From Nitratidesulfovibrio termitidis HI1 (lineage in GTDB: Bacteria; Desulfobacterota; Desulfovibrionia; Desulfovibrionales; Desulfovibrionaceae): DNA of 64,000 nucleotides. A program made the translations under genes and the position numbers. The stretch lies in NCBI RefSeq assembly GCF_000504305.1, contig NZ_KI632512.1:3957639-4021638 (forward strand), written 5' to 3'. The notes under the pieces are model-generated. The model had not been told where the DNA came from. It did no database searches and saw nothing but the letters and a program-made list of their open reading frames with translations. Positions 48,970 through 58,334 of the stretch are shown piece by piece. Numbering within the stretch: position 1 is the first letter of the stretch; every line of letters starts with the position of its first letter.

Positions 48970-49734
48970 CTACGAAAAGACGAACTGCTCCGTCTCCACG
49001 CCGCCGGTGTCCACTCCGAAGGCATGCAATTCGTCCAGCACGTGCTGCTGCATGGGGCCGGGACCGCACAGGTAGAACGAGGCCGTGGCCGATTGCACGT
49101 GACGGCCCAGCATCTCGCGCGAGAGGCGTCCCTTTTCGAAGAACACGGCGGGCAGTTCCGGGTCGGCATAGTGGTGCGGATTCGTCTCGCGCGTGAGCAC
49201 ATGCACCACGGTCAGGTCCAGCCGCCGGGTCATGGCTTCCAGTTCCTCGGCGGCAAAGGCGTCGCCATAGGTCTTGTTGGACCAGAACAGCACCACCCGG
49301 TTGGTCGCCCCGGCCTGGTCGAAGCTGCGCAGCACGCTGAGGAACGGCGTGATGCCCACCCCGCCCGCGATGAGCACGATCTGCTCCTGCCGTTCGATGT
49401 CGCGGCAGAACACCCCGTAAGGCCCTGCGCAGCGCACTTCGTCGCCGTCGCGCAGGCCCGGCACCAGTTCCGACGTGAAGTGCCCCTTGCCCCGGATGGT
49501 CAGCCGCACGGTGTCACCGGGCGCGGCGGCGATGGTGAAGGGATGGGCATCGCTCCAGCCATCCTCCTCCATCACCCGCAGGGTGGCGAACTGCCCCGGA
49601 CGGAAGGTGCGGAAGCGCTCATCGTCGCCCGTGTCGATGTACACGGAGGTGGTGTTGTCGTCCTCGCGCACGGTGCGCAGGATGCGGGCCTTGTGTGCCT
49701 TGGGGCCCTTGGAATGTGTCGAATCGTCGCTCAT
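48970..49734 (-). CDS. ferredoxin-NADP reductase-family FAD/NAD(P) oxidoreductase
   Basis: A 254-residue two-domain flavoprotein. The FAD domain has RPGQFATLRV (45-54) and HPFTIA (64-69), the RxYS-like site replaced by HPFT as in some ferric-reductase relatives. The NAD(P) domain has GGVGITPFLSVL (124-135) and YLCGPGPMQQHV near the end, terminating in EQFVFS. No Fe-S domain is attached, so an unlinked partner carries the electrons. The start at 49734 follows GGGAGCG. Upstream is a 10-bp tandem array and then a sigma-54 activator gene on the same strand. Confidence 0.9.
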   Translation of the reverse strand: MSDDSTHSKGPKAHKARILRTVREDDNTTSVYIDTGDDERFRTFRPGQFATLRVMEEDGWSDAHPFTIAAAPGDTVRLTIRGKGHFTSELVPGLRDGDEVRCAGPYGVFCRDIERQEQIVLIAGGVGITPFLSVLRSFDQAGATNRVVLFWSNKTYGDAFAAEELEAMTRRLDLTVVHVLTRETNPHHYADPELPAVFFEKGRLSREMLGRHVQSATASFYLCGPGPMQQHVLDELHAFGVDTGGVETEQFVFS

Positions 49735-49904
49735 GTCTCGCTCCCTGCGGTGCGTGCGGTGCGGTGGCCGCCGGGCGGATGGCGGCCAGTCCGCAGTCTC
49801 GCCCCTTAGTTTCGCCCATGACGGCGGGCATGACAAGCGGGGCACGCAAAGATGGGCGTAAATATCACCGCCAGGTCCCGCACTGCCGGACGAGGCCTGC
49901 GTGC

Positions 49905-50020
49905 CGGATCATAACGGATCATAACGGATCATGGCGGGTCATAACGGATCATGGCCGATCATGGCGGATCAGGGCGGATCAGGGCGGGTCATAACGGATC
50001 ATGGCGGATCAGGGCGGATA
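49905..50020. repeat. 10-bp tandem repeat array, about 11.6 copies
   Basis: Units CGGATCATAA, CGGATCATGG, CGGATCAGGG and CGGGTCATAA follow one another without spacers from 49905. The array lies 171 to 286 bases upstream of the flavoprotein start on the minus strand, and 62 bases after the 3' end of the sigma-54 activator gene. Confidence 0.95.
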
Positions 50021-53592: not shown

Positions 53593-53630
53593 CTGATCCG
53601 CTCACTCCCGCACGGGGATGGGCGGATCAG
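53593..53630. terminator. hairpin between HDOD and cotH genes
   Basis: CTGATCCGC (53593-53601) and GCGGATCAG (53622-53630) with an inner CCCG/CGGG stem, overlapping the cotH stop codon. TCGTTT follows on the plus strand. It probably ends the HDOD transcript. Confidence 0.55.
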
Positions 53631-55294
53631 TCGTTTGTGCAGACGGCGCGGATGCGCAGGGACGAGCGCACGTCAATGTCGAGTTGTCCCGCCTCGCGGG
53701 GGGTGTCGTCCACTTCCCAGTGCAGCAGCCTGGCGCAGCCTTCGGCGGGGGGCGCCACGGTGATCCGTTGTCCCTCGAAGTAGCGCCCGGTGTAGTCGGT
53801 GTAGCCGGGTTCGCCGTCAATGCGCATCGGGCCGGGTGCGCTTACCTGCACCGTGTGCCAGCGGGGCGCCTTGAGGTCGCGCACGGTTTCCTCCAGCACT
53901 TCGTCGGCCCGGTTGGCCAGCATCCGGCGGGCCAGGGCCTCGTCGAACATGGTGTTCCCGGCCTGGCGGTCCAGGGCTTCGTACCGGGCAAACAGCCGTT
54001 CGCGCGCCGCGTCGTTCAGGGTGTGGTTCAGCGCATGGGTGACGAAATGCAGGAAGAAGTCGCGGAATTCCGGCGATTCTTTCCACAGCCGCAAGAACAG
54101 GCGCATGCGCACGGCCTTCTTTTCATCCAGGGCGTATTTCCAGCCGGGGCGCTGGTCCAGCGGGCCGCCGGGGACCAGATGCTGGAAGGCCTCGTCCAGA
54201 TCCCAGGCGATGTTGGTCCAGCGCGGATCTGGCTGGTTCTTGTCCAGCAGAAAGGCGCCCTGGTCCCAGTCGGACTCGCCCAGGTACACGGCGCCGAAGA
54301 TGATGGCGCACATGCTGCGCAGGTCCATGCGGCGCTCGGCCTGCTGCATGGTCATGGGGGCGGGCAGCAGGCGGAGCCACAGGTACAGTTCGCGCAGGGC
54401 CGCGAATTCCGCCCGGTCGTTGCCCTTGCGAATGGAGTAGAGCAGGAAGTTGCCGTGTCCCAGCCTGCGTTTCCAGTGGGCTTCGGCGATGTGCTCGCTG
54501 ACCATGGAAAGCCCCATGTCCTTGCCGTTCACCGAGAACACGGCGGGCACGAACCGGGGCGTTTCCGCGCCCAGCATGCCCATGATGTCCAGCCCCAGCA
54601 TGTTGATGAAGCCGGGGATGGTGGTTTTTTCCTTGCGCAGCACCAGGCGTTTCAGCGTGCCTTCCGCGTCGTGGAAGAACAGGTCGGCTGGCTGCGTCGA
54701 TGTGCCGTAGGCATTGCGGAAATAGAGGCGATAGCCGATGCCGAGGTCGCGCGAGCCGCCGCCGTGCAGGCGAAGTCCCACGCCGGTGGCCAGGCGTTCC
54801 TGCCCGTCGCGGTAGTAGACCACGGCTGCCGGGCGTTCCCATTCCCGGCCACGTTCCTTGTGGTTGACATTGATGCCGGATTCCGGGTCGTTCAGGCTGG
54901 CGTCGTCGGTGCGCACGGCGAACACGGGCCAGCCGCTGGCCACCATGGCGGGATCCGCGTCGCGGCGGGCCTGTTCCAGCAGTTCCAGGGTGTGGGCCCT
55001 GTTTTCCGGGGCCACGGCGTGCACATCGGGCAGGCCCATTTCGGCCAGCAGTTGCCGCTTGCGGGGCGAACCCAGCGCATCCTTTCTGGTGGCCATGTCC
55101 AGCGACACGAAACGGTACTGCCGGATGGCGGACGTGCGTTCCAGCAGCAGCCCGGCGCACAGCAGGGCGGCAACGAACAGTGCCGCCGCCCATAACGAAA
55201 TGCGGGGGACGTGGCCTGGTGCGCGCGGGCCGGATGGCGGCGCGGTGCCGCCCCCCTGTGGCGGGCTACTGGGCGGCGTGGTCGAAATAGACAT
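53627..55294 (-). CDS. CotH kinase-family protein
   Basis: A 555-residue CotH-type protein. After a short Pro/Ser-rich cytoplasmic start there is one transmembrane anchor (about 35-52, ISLWAAALFVAALLCAGLLL), so the body should face the periplasm. The kinase core includes GVGLRLHGGGSRDLG, LKRLVLRKEK (presumed ATP Lys), FGAVYLGESDWDQGAFLLD and TNIAWDLDEAFQHL; the acidic residues in SDWDQ and WDLDEA match catalytic and metal positions of CotH. CotH phosphorylates serines of spore-coat proteins in Bacillus; Gram-negative targets are unknown. A C-terminal beta domain (about 480-555) follows. The start overlaps the DUF4956 gene by 29 bases; TTG 55315 is an alternative. Confidence 0.88.
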   Translation of the reverse strand: MSISTTPPSSPPQGGGTAPPSGPRAPGHVPRISLWAAALFVAALLCAGLLLERTSAIRQYRFVSLDMATRKDALGSPRKRQLLAEMGLPDVHAVAPENRAHTLELLEQARRDADPAMVASGWPVFAVRTDDASLNDPESGINVNHKERGREWERPAAVVYYRDGQERLATGVGLRLHGGGSRDLGIGYRLYFRNAYGTSTQPADLFFHDAEGTLKRLVLRKEKTTIPGFINMLGLDIMGMLGAETPRFVPAVFSVNGKDMGLSMVSEHIAEAHWKRRLGHGNFLLYSIRKGNDRAEFAALRELYLWLRLLPAPMTMQQAERRMDLRSMCAIIFGAVYLGESDWDQGAFLLDKNQPDPRWTNIAWDLDEAFQHLVPGGPLDQRPGWKYALDEKKAVRMRLFLRLWKESPEFRDFFLHFVTHALNHTLNDAARERLFARYEALDRQAGNTMFDEALARRMLANRADEVLEETVRDLKAPRWHTVQVSAPGPMRIDGEPGYTDYTGRYFEGQRITVAPPAEGCARLLHWEVDDTPREAGQLDIDVRSSLRIRAVCTND

Positions 55295-55988
55295 TGATTT
55301 CGGCGCCGGGGGCAAGCCCGTCGGTCAGTGCGGTCAGGCGCTGCACCAGGGTTTCGTCGGAGCGGGCGAAGGTGGCGATGACGGTGCGCCGCGCGCCGTC
55401 GCCCGAAATGCTGGCCACGCTCAGTTCCGGCAGGGTGTCGCGCAGGGCTGGCAGCAAGGCCGCATCGGCCTCGCGTTCGGATGCCGGGTAGGAGATGACG
55501 GCCGTGCCGCTGCGCCGGGCCACGCGGCCCCGCCGGAAGCGGTGCGCCACCGCCAGTCCGGCCGTGACCACGCCCAGGAACAGCGCCAGGATGACGATGT
55601 TCAGGGTGGCGCAGCAGATGGCCGTGGCGATGTTCACCATGATGAAGCCTACCTCTTCCGGTTCCTTGATGGGGGTACGGAAGCGGATGATGGACAGCGC
55701 GCCCAAAAGGCCCAGGGACAGCGGCAGCGAGAACTGCACGCAGATGAAGATGGCGGTGATGGACGGCCCCAGCAGCAGGAAGCTGCGGTGCACCAGGCTG
55801 CCCGTGCCCCGGCTTTCATAGAAGCGGGAGTAGAGCAGCGCGGTGTACTGGGAGGTGAGCAGGGAGATGAGCAGGGCCAGCAGGAAGGTGCCCGCCCCGA
55901 TGTCTGCCGCCTGCTTGGAACCGAAGCCGGTCACGGCGACCAGCGCCTGGTAGGAACTGCCGAGAACGTCGAAGAGTGATTCAACCAT
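55266..55988 (-). CDS. DUF4956 membrane protein
   Basis: A 240-residue integral membrane protein with about four helices (GTFLLALLISLLTSQYTALLY, SFLLLGPSITAIFICVQFSL, GLLGALSIIRFRTPIKEPEE, IATAICCATLNIVILALFLG). It ends in a soluble ferredoxin-like domain (about 165-240, GTAVISYPASEREADAALLP...). SIIRFRTPIKEPEEVGFI is the family fingerprint. DUF4956 has no proven function but is repeatedly found beside VTC and CotH genes, as here. It overlaps cotH. Confidence 0.9.
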   Translation of the reverse strand: MVESLFDVLGSSYQALVAVTGFGSKQAADIGAGTFLLALLISLLTSQYTALLYSRFYESRGTGSLVHRSFLLLGPSITAIFICVQFSLPLSLGLLGALSIIRFRTPIKEPEEVGFIMVNIATAICCATLNIVILALFLGVVTAGLAVAHRFRRGRVARRSGTAVISYPASEREADAALLPALRDTLPELSVASISGDGARRTVIATFARSDETLVQRLTALTDGLAPGAEINVYFDHAAQ

Positions 55989-56105
55989 GGGAATGACGAC
56001 CTTGCATGGGTAGTGTGTCCGGGGGATGTATCAGGGCAGGGCGGACCGCACGCGTGCCCGCCGGTTGGATGTCCTGGTGGCTGCCAGCCGGGAGTCGGCC
56101 GGGCG

Positions 56106-56837
56106 TCAGGCGCGATGCGGGGGCGGAGCCGCCGGGGCGAAGCAGGTATACCCGCCGGGCACTCCGGTAGAACAGAACAGCATGTCGTGGCATGCAAGAT
56201 ATTTGGAAAACGTCTCCCGCCGGAAGTGAACGGTGTTCACGGCATGCAGCGAGCGCGGCATTTCGCGCAGGCTGCCTTTTACCTCCAGCACGGCCACGGG
56301 CAGGGGCGTGGGATTGTGCCGGGCGATGAAGGCCGGATTGGTGCGGGGCACGTGAATGCCCGTGTCCACGGCGATGCGCGCCCCGGTGGTCGGATCGATG
56401 AAGCGGTGGCGGGTGTAGCGCAGGATGAACAGGGGAAAGAGAGGGCGGGGGAAGGGAATGCCCGCTTCCGCCAGATGTTCCGGCAGGCGGCACAGCAAGG
56501 GGTCCGTCAACGGGGTGTTCCACAGGGTGTCCCCGTCCAGGGGCAGCAGCACGCGGGCCTTGTCGCGCGCGGCGCCTTCCTTGCGCTTGGCCTCCAGGAA
56601 CACGGCGCGCTCCATCGCCGTTCCCCGCACGGCGCCGTACCAGCGGCAGCGTATCTTGGTCTTCAGATAGTCGCTGTTGCGCTTTTCTTCCAGCAGGGCG
56701 CGCGCGGGCGTGTCGTAGTAGAGTGAAAAGACGTCCGCCGCCGGAAACGCGGGGTCGGGACGGCACACCGCACCCAGCAGGTCCACGACCGCAGGGGCGA
56801 AGGCAGGGGCGAAGGTGTATTTTATCTCGTTGCTCAC
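56106..56837 (-). CDS. VTC-domain polyphosphate polymerase-like protein
   Basis: A 243-residue VTC-domain protein, related to the catalytic tunnel of yeast Vtc4, which makes polyphosphate from ATP. Tunnel-fold strands are visible in order: NEIKYTFAP, VFSLYYDTPARALLEEKR, LKTKIRCRWYG, AVFLEAKRKEGAARDKARV, LRYTRHRFIDPTTGARIAVDTG and LPVAVLEVKGSLREMP, rich in the basic and acidic residues that bind nucleotide and metal. GTG at 56837 is the likely start (VSNEIKYTF); upstream sequence is not family-like. The SPX and membrane domains of eukaryotic VTC are absent. DUF4956 follows after 117 bases. Confidence 0.88.
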   Translation of the reverse strand: MSNEIKYTFAPAFAPAVVDLLGAVCRPDPAFPAADVFSLYYDTPARALLEEKRNSDYLKTKIRCRWYGAVRGTAMERAVFLEAKRKEGAARDKARVLLPLDGDTLWNTPLTDPLLCRLPEHLAEAGIPFPRPLFPLFILRYTRHRFIDPTTGARIAVDTGIHVPRTNPAFIARHNPTPLPVAVLEVKGSLREMPRSLHAVNTVHFRRETFSKYLACHDMLFCSTGVPGGYTCFAPAAPPPHRA

Positions 56838-57065
56838 GATGGAATCCGCCACGGGTGCGAGAGGATGGTGGTTCCGGGGGGGGATGCCGGGCCCGCGCAA
56901 AGGGGCACGGCAGGCGGGCCGGAAGGTTGGCGCAGCTCCGGATGGTGACGCACTCGTGTTACGGGATATCGTGCCGAAAGTCCATTTCACCGCGCGGCGG
57001 GGACATGTGCGGTGTTCCGTCGCGGTGTGAAGGCCCATTGCATGGATGATGTGCCGAGGGGGAGG

Positions 57066-58334
57066 CTATGGCTTCTCTTGCGTCATCGCGGGCAGCGACG
57101 TGGACAGTGCGGTGAGGTGTCGCAGCAGTCGTTCGTTATCGCTGCGGCAGCGAACCTGCATTCTTATATAGCCGTTGGGCATGCCGGGTATGTTGTCGCA
57201 GGATCGTACCAGTATGCCGTGGTGCAAGAGTTCGCTACGTACCATTTCCGCCGTGACGCCGATGCGCAGCAGTTCATCGGCCAGGCGGCAGGTTACGAAG
57301 CTGGGGCCCGCATCGGTGGCCTGGGGGGCGAACACGCCCGATCGGCGCAGACCGTCGAGAAGAGCGGAACGGTCGGCACGCAGGGTGGTCAGGTGCGCCC
57401 GGTAGTCCGGCAGGGCGTGCAGAAAGCGCCTGCCCATGGCCTCGGCAAAGGGGGATACCATCCACGGCGGACGCAGGGCCTGCAGGATATCCAGCAGGTC
57501 CTTCGGCCCGGTCAGGTAGCCCAGGCGTATCCCCGTGCAGTGGAAGAATTTGGTGAAGCTGTGCAGGCACAGCAGCGTATCGCCTGTGTGGTGGGCCGGG
57601 CTGGCCACTTTAGGCTGACGGGCCTGACAGGCCGCCGCGAGGGCCGCGTGGCGGTGGGCATCGTGTTCCGGGGTGGACCACAGGAAGTCGCGGTAGGTCA
57701 GGTCGGCCAGCACGGTGCGAAAGCCCGACCGGAACAGGGCGGCCACCAGGGCGGGCAGGTCGGGCGCGGCAACCGGGCAGGGATTGCCCGGCGAGCAGAG
57801 CACCACCAGTTCATCGTCGGCATCGGCTGCGGTGCCGGGCCGGAAATCCGGCGCGGGGGCGTCCAGCGCGTGCATGGGGTGGGCATGCAGCACCCGCCAC
57901 GGTATGGCGTGGGTCTCGCAGGCGCGGGCGTATTCGGAAAAGGTGGGACCCAGCAGGGTGACCCGGCCGGGCCGCAGCACGCGCAGGATCAGCCAGATGA
58001 GTTCGGACGAGCCGTTGCCCACCATGATGTTGCCCGGGGCAAGCCCCTCGTGCGCGGCCAGTTCCTCGCGCAGGGCGGCGCTGGAACTGTCCGGATAGTG
58101 CTCGAAGGGATGGGGCAGCGTCTCGACCAGGGCGCGGGTCAATTCCAGCACATGGGCGAAGCCGTTGCTGCTGCAATCCAGGATGTGCTCCGGGGCCACG
58201 CCCAGTTCGCGGGCCACGCGGTAGATTTCGCCGCCGTGCGTACCCTGCCTCGGGGCGGAATGCGGTGCGCCATCACGGGGGGCAGCGGGGTGCGGCGCAA
58301 AGGAGGCATGAGGGGGATGTCCGGCATCAGGCAT
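57066..58334 (-). CDS. PLP-dependent aminotransferase/decarboxylase, CobD-HisC type
   Basis: A 422-residue fold-type I enzyme closest by eye to threonine-phosphate decarboxylase (CobD) and histidinol-phosphate aminotransferase. HGGEIYRVARELGVAPEHILDCSSNGF resembles the CobD N-terminus; VGNGSSELIWLILR, LCSPGNPCPVAAP and LHSFTKFFHCTGIRLGYLTGP (PLP Lys) follow. YIRMQVRCRSDNERLL carries the substrate-carboxylate Arg. The ATG overlaps the stop of the upstream glycosyltransferase by eight bases, so it belongs to the glycan operon. No cobalamin gene is nearby, so a role in making an amino-alcohol or amino group for the glycan is an inference. Confidence 0.82.
   Translation of the reverse strand: MPDAGHPPHASFAPHPAAPRDGAPHSAPRQGTHGGEIYRVARELGVAPEHILDCSSNGFAHVLELTRALVETLPHPFEHYPDSSSAALREELAAHEGLAPGNIMVGNGSSELIWLILRVLRPGRVTLLGPTFSEYARACETHAIPWRVLHAHPMHALDAPAPDFRPGTAADADDELVVLCSPGNPCPVAAPDLPALVAALFRSGFRTVLADLTYRDFLWSTPEHDAHRHAALAAACQARQPKVASPAHHTGDTLLCLHSFTKFFHCTGIRLGYLTGPKDLLDILQALRPPWMVSPFAEAMGRRFLHALPDYRAHLTTLRADRSALLDGLRRSGVFAPQATDAGPSFVTCRLADELLRIGVTAEMVRSELLHHGILVRSCDNIPGMPNGYIRMQVRCRSDNERLLRHLTALSTSLPAMTQEKP

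Follow-up and report, generated by a model that had tools for sequence, protein, structure and literature searches.

A cotH-PPP-DUF4956(-DUF4832) gene group has been reported as an accessory of Gram-positive pelDEADAFG loci, where CotH was guessed to be a possible regulator of Pel synthesis (PMC7112168), and neighbouring VTC and CotH genes have been listed in Clostridium perfringens (PMC2879425). Discharge and movement of polyphosphate by yeast Vtc4 depend on basic trans-membrane residues that line the path (PMC9911596), and the CotH protein of Bacillus subtilis is inactivated by replacing D228 or D251 (PMC7821199). The literature searched, which lacks most subscription journals, yielded no study on the function of a VTC-DUF4956 pair from bacteria. 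Here we describe a trio of genes of these three families, VTC, DUF4956 and cotH, in a 64,000-nt stretch of the genome of Nitratidesulfovibrio termitidis HI1 (contig NZ_KI632512.1, positions 3,957,639 to 4,021,638), which is called the window and whose own numbering is used for its features. The genomic evidence supports well the view that the trio is one conserved module and one envelope system. We read it, with a probability of about 0.4, as a membrane phosphoryl-export and modification module, in which polyphosphate made by VTC would pass by way of DUF4956 to the outside and be used there by CotH.

The trio and its distribution

The first-pass annotation of the window had described three adjoining minus-strand genes, with cotH overlapping the DUF4956 gene, and this was borne out by Pfam (all three calls above the curated cut-offs) and by the sequence. 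The VTC-domain polyphosphate polymerase (56106-56837, minus strand, 243 aa; PF09359, E = 3.4e-17) is a soluble protein, presumably of the cytosol, and its GTG start at 56837 coincides with the onset of coding conservation in seven genomes of the genus. It is followed by the DUF4956 membrane protein (55266-55988, minus strand, 240 aa; PF16316, E = 2.2e-13, 50.7 bits against a cut-off of 30.6) and by the CotH-type kinase-fold protein (53627-55294, minus strand, 555 aa; PF08757, E = 1.4e-11). The ATG of cotH at 55294 lies inside the DUF4956 frame, and the two minus-strand frames overlap by 29 nt across the DUF4956 stop (55266-55294). The overlap is also kept in congeners, and it suggests that translation of the two genes may be coupled.

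The DUF4956 alignment was scanned against 84,980 species genomes and gave 80 loci. Partners were counted with iterated profiles for the three families in the 45 loci whose flanks reached 4.5 kb or more on each side: VTC was found in 41, CotH in 38 and both in 35, in several gene orders. Conservation in other genomes, on which the first-pass idea of one system depended, was thus found, with complete trios in at least 11 phyla, judged by the titles of the records. The surprise attached earlier to a Gram-negative, non-sporulating setting proved smaller than claimed, given this breadth and the published occurrence of the group in non-sporulating streptococci and bifidobacteria.

Because the 80 loci were chosen by similarity to the window protein, 198 Bacteroidota genomes were additionally sampled by Pfam family. 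DUF4956 was present in 59 of these, VTC in 37 and CotH in 81, and all 37 VTC-bearing genomes had both DUF4956 and CotH. For 41 of the 42 VTC matches a DUF4956 gene lay less than 4 kb away on the same strand, the exception being a 162-bp match. The co-occurrence of the trio is far beyond chance (Fisher P, not corrected for shared ancestry: VTC-DUF4956, 5e-25; VTC-CotH, 8e-18). DUF4956 was found in only 4 of 198 genomes of the host's own phylum; this patchy occurrence, together with close relatives in other phyla, suggests possible horizontal transfer. No near-identical copies of the trio were found on plasmids, where only five distant DUF4956 genes were seen, one of which was listed together with a polyphosphate polymerase. 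No fourth gene proved to be constant in a search for one: the cluster of neighbours seen most often, of phosphoesterase-like proteins, was present in only 11 loci.

Within the genus, the synteny of the trio was kept in seven of eight genomes, in one of these split by a contig end. The ratio of nonsynonymous to synonymous substitution rates (dN/dS) against congeners was 0.08-0.17 for VTC, 0.12-0.24 for DUF4956 and 0.17-0.39 for CotH; purifying selection thus acts on all three genes. Two congeners carried the order VTC-DUF4956-cotH-DUF4956-cotH (L116:10080-14983 and L117:5384-10227), a tandem duplication of DUF4956-cotH in which the DUF4956 copies were 100% and 99% identical and the CotH copies 74% and 70%, as if gene conversion had kept the DUF4956 copies alike while the cotH copies diverged. 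This pattern fits a core matched to one VTC and a diversifying output. Evolutionary distances of VTC and DUF4956 were correlated (rho = 0.80), those of CotH less well (0.49-0.54), and VTC and DUF4956 had the same eight nearest relatives. The data fit a division in which VTC and DUF4956 behave as a constant core and CotH is swapped, duplicated and fast-evolving.

Anatomy of the proteins and of the transcription unit

The VTC profile matched the yeast Vtc4 structures 3g3q and 5iiq (E = 5e-18), and both the TTM/VTC profile and the tunnel motifs (ExK, RxRWY, ExK, R..R..D, ExK and SKY) were present in the window protein. Among 36 proteins, including that of the window, the residues E4, K6, Y40, D42, K61, R63, R65, E82, K84, K93, R143, R154, D158, E185, K187, S211 and K212 were invariant; judged by these residues, the active site is intact. 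The 243-aa window protein has a single domain, with neither an SPX domain nor Vtc1-type trans-membrane helices, and a hydrophobic segment was found in none of 63 VTC homologues. The host genome gave no match to PPK1 or PPK2, which leaves VTC as its only recognised polyphosphate polymerase.

The AlphaFold2 model of DUF4956 (predicted local distance difference test score, pLDDT, 87) showed five long helices followed by a C-terminal beta-alpha-beta-beta-alpha-beta domain; the helices are predicted to span the membrane and the domain to be ferredoxin/ACT-like. Hydrophobic segments were found in all 82 DUF4956 homologues. In an hhalign comparison, DUF4956 aligned with the MgtC profile over 198 columns (probability 97, E = 3e-11) with a score of 76, against 22 or less for 16 reversed or shuffled controls and the VTC profile. 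Each half of DUF4956, membrane or C-terminal, also matched the MgtC profile by itself. Foldseek with the model returned the C-terminal domain of MgtC (2lqj) among its matches. The MgtC family of Pfam (PF02308) had no match in the window protein and reached at best 15.2 bits, in one homologue, against a cut-off of 31.4. From the profile comparison and the predicted fold we conclude that DUF4956 is a distant homologue of MgtC, at the level of the fold; no mention of this link was found in the literature searched. A PDB profile search with DUF4956 returned only designed proteins, and Foldseek of the model against viral models nothing meaningful. With VIA-align the only match was to the widespread ferredoxin fold of the C-terminal part, which provides no test of the membrane part.

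The most conserved motif of DUF4956 was IIRFRTPIKEP (GALSIIRFRTPIKEP), in which R102 and R104 were invariant and K108 nearly so. In Anaerolineae (L024, L031, L032, L047 and L073), DUF4956 proteins carried an N-terminal signal peptide and a LamG/3-keto-disaccharide-hydrolase-like domain, which places the N-terminus outside. With five helices, and in agreement with a basic stretch after the last helix, the ACT-like domain and the RFRTPIKEP loop would then face the cytosol.

The CotH profile matched PDB 5jd9 (E = 1e-44), and its AlphaFold2 model matched 5jda and 5jd9 (Foldseek, E = 2e-11). Single-sequence PDB searches with VTC and CotH gave nothing useful, whereas the profiles did match. D342 and D365 of the window protein aligned with D228 and D251 of B. 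subtilis, with a spacing of 23 as in 5JD9. Two main types of CotH were found in trios, approximately 32 of an Asp-type and 29 of a His-type, in which an invariant His replaces the catalytic Asp (L056, L058, L020, L036 and 25 others). The Pfam model covers the His-type only partly and largely misses this group, of which at least one member was fused to a right-handed beta-helix. The window CotH has one N-terminal membrane anchor, as the first-pass annotation had held, and an N-terminal hydrophobic segment was present in 57 of 63 CotH proteins; the protein is predicted to lie outside the cytoplasm. The predicted topology was thus constant, with VTC soluble, DUF4956 polytopic and CotH anchored outside, which supports the division into core and output.

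A 42-nt block, AATGGACTTTCGGCACGATATCCCGTAACACGAGTGCGTCAC (56945-56986, minus strand), found by comparison with congeners, sits upstream of VTC, 108-149 nt from its start. It was near-identical in the seven trio-bearing genomes of the genus and absent from the eighth, trio-less genome. Each trio-bearing genome had it once, and the only other occurrences were single matches with 3 mismatches in two genomes. In congeners it contained the palindrome CCCGTAACACGGG. The block is a likely candidate for a promoter or operator belonging to the trio itself. Together with the gene overlap, it suggests that the trio is a transcription unit of its own, apart from the upstream glycosyltransferase and CobD-like genes, and there was no sign that the three genes are independently transcribed, a finding that would have spoken against the first-pass proposal. 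Upstream of VTC there was no Rfam match to an RNA element, a sigma-70 promoter scan found none and terminators were at chance level; no sigma-54 consensus was seen by eye in the block.

Two further observations concern the neighbourhood. A CobD/HisC-like pyridoxal phosphate (PLP) enzyme (57066-58334) follows three glycosyltransferases and an O-antigen-ligase-like gene in a surface-glycan cluster. Farther away, approximately 11 tandem copies of the 10-bp unit CGGATCATGG (49905-50019) lie upstream of the gene at 48970-49845 and downstream of a sigma-54 activator gene.

Proposed mechanism and alternative explanations

The first-pass idea of one envelope system gained partial support from the conserved module, the soluble VTC, the membrane-bound DUF4956, the predicted position of CotH outside and the upstream block. 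In the export reading, VTC, on the side of the cytosol, would turn ATP into polyphosphate, as homology and the analogy with yeast Vtc4 suggest. DUF4956, with its invariant arginines at the cytosolic edge, would dock VTC and carry the chain across the membrane, in the role that trans-membrane helices have in the yeast VTC complex. The anchored CotH would use the exported polyphosphate, either as phosphate donor or as the transferred group, and its target may be a component of the envelope or of an exopolysaccharide. In this scheme the core, VTC with DUF4956, would be constant, and the output, CotH, could be exchanged. Homology points to the synthesis step, and the anatomy of the proteins hints at translocation by DUF4956 and at the use of polyphosphate by CotH. 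The more specific proposal, that polyphosphate exported by an MgtC-like protein serves, in place of ATP, as the donor for an extracellular kinase, approximately 40% of the kinases having a remodelled, His-type site, is unlikely as a whole.

If polyphosphate or pyrophosphate reaches the outside, enzymes that cut phosphoanhydrides are expected there. Inorganic pyrophosphatases of the family PF00719 are normally cytosolic. Near VTC, members whose N-terminus carries an export signal or a lipobox were found in four loci from two phyla (L060:5040-5645, L084:14254-14919, L048:14127-14756 and L056:16822-17436), and in three of the four the gene abuts or overlaps VTC. Proteins of the calcineurin-like phosphoesterase family lay near the trio in 11 loci, most of them with export signals; for one of these proteins the phosphoesterase domain was confirmed by Pfam, and in another Pfam missed it. 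The export signals of both groups were judged by eye.

Several observations weigh against export and outside use. The literature searched yielded no biochemical work on bacterial VTC proteins of this type. The earlier claim that key residues are intact holds for VTC and for the catalytic Asp residues of CotH, but not for the catalytic-loop Asn of CotH (Asp+5; Asn in 5JD9), which is Ala (A347) in the window protein, as in four other trio CotH proteins. His-type proteins make up about 40% of trio CotH proteins; with the loss of Asn, this means that kinase activity of CotH is not assured. DUF4956 was present without VTC in 22 of the 59 Bacteroidota genomes that have it, and six such regions (L129-L134) had neither VTC nor CotH nearby and differed in context, which means that DUF4956 also serves other roles. 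Proteins of the MgtC type are known more for regulation than for channel activity, and DUF4956 could therefore regulate instead.

A regulatory module built on this last point is rather unlikely. Polyphosphate made by VTC would here be an intracellular store, the MgtC-like DUF4956 would sense or tune phosphate or ATP metabolism through its ACT-like domain, and CotH would be a pseudokinase reporting the state of the envelope. The homology with MgtC is in its favour, as are the C-terminal ferredoxin/ACT-like fold, common in ligand-sensing domains, and the trio CotH proteins that lack the catalytic Asn (window) or Asp (many others). However, the window CotH keeps its catalytic Asp residues and its gene is under purifying selection, and the near-obligate pairing of VTC with DUF4956 and the exported pyrophosphatases adjoining VTC better fit an extracytoplasmic product. 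The same pyrophosphatases would suit a variant, distinctly unlikely in our estimate, in which VTC-DUF4956 exports tri- or pyrophosphate rather than long polyphosphate and CotH is an ATP-independent phosphotransferase acting on glycans or proteins of exopolysaccharide systems. The association with Pel loci (PMC7112168), glycosyltransferase and O-antigen ligase genes nearby in the genus of the window and some other loci, and the His-type CotH-beta-helix fusion agree with this variant, but the window's own clade of loci has no constant glycan neighbour. It is highly improbable that the neighbourhood is conserved without joint function, through shared regulation or as passenger genes: DUF4956 and CotH are both also found apart from the trio, yet the trio persists in many phyla and several gene orders, DUF4956-cotH was duplicated jointly with homogenised DUF4956 copies, and VTC and DUF4956 share their nearest relatives.

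Comparison with known systems

The export reading bears on how bacterial proteins or glycans are phosphorylated in the ATP-poor surroundings beyond the cytoplasm, and on the functions of DUF4956 and of bacterial VTC. With a polymerase, an MgtC-like protein and a kinase-like protein of the outer side encoded in one operon, in at least 11 phyla, all three questions become directly testable, and MgtC-type proteins are placed beside phosphate-polymer chemistry. The grouping itself is already known from one setting, the Pel loci. What appears to be added is the breadth of the trio and its division into core and output, the relation of DUF4956 to MgtC and the His-type CotH; also new are the constant predicted topology, the exported pyrophosphatases and phosphoesterases beside some trios, a host without PPK1 or PPK2 and the 42-nt block.

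The Gram-positive Pel accessory group has the same three families adjoining, in streptococci, clostridia and bifidobacteria (PMC7112168), whereas the window trio stands alone, in a Desulfovibrionaceae-like genome, and trios occur in many other phyla. The polymerase domain is homologous to that of the yeast VTC complex (Vtc1/3/4; PMC9911596) and has its active-site residues, and the trio can be likened to that complex in the latter's need for a membrane part with basic residues. The trio differs from it in lacking SPX and Vtc1-type helices, in having an MgtC-like membrane partner on a separate gene and in having a kinase-like protein predicted on the far side. DUF4956 resembles MgtC/SapB (PF02308) in its helices followed by a C-terminal ferredoxin-like domain and in the significant profile match, but it lacks the signature residues of MgtC and is linked to VTC, and the genome has a separate true MgtC. 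The window CotH shares the kinase-like fold and the two catalytic Asp positions with the Bacillus spore-coat kinase (5JD9/5JDA; PMC7821199); unlike that protein, it has an N-terminal anchor, is presumably extracytoplasmic, carries Ala in place of Asn and has no spore coat to act on.

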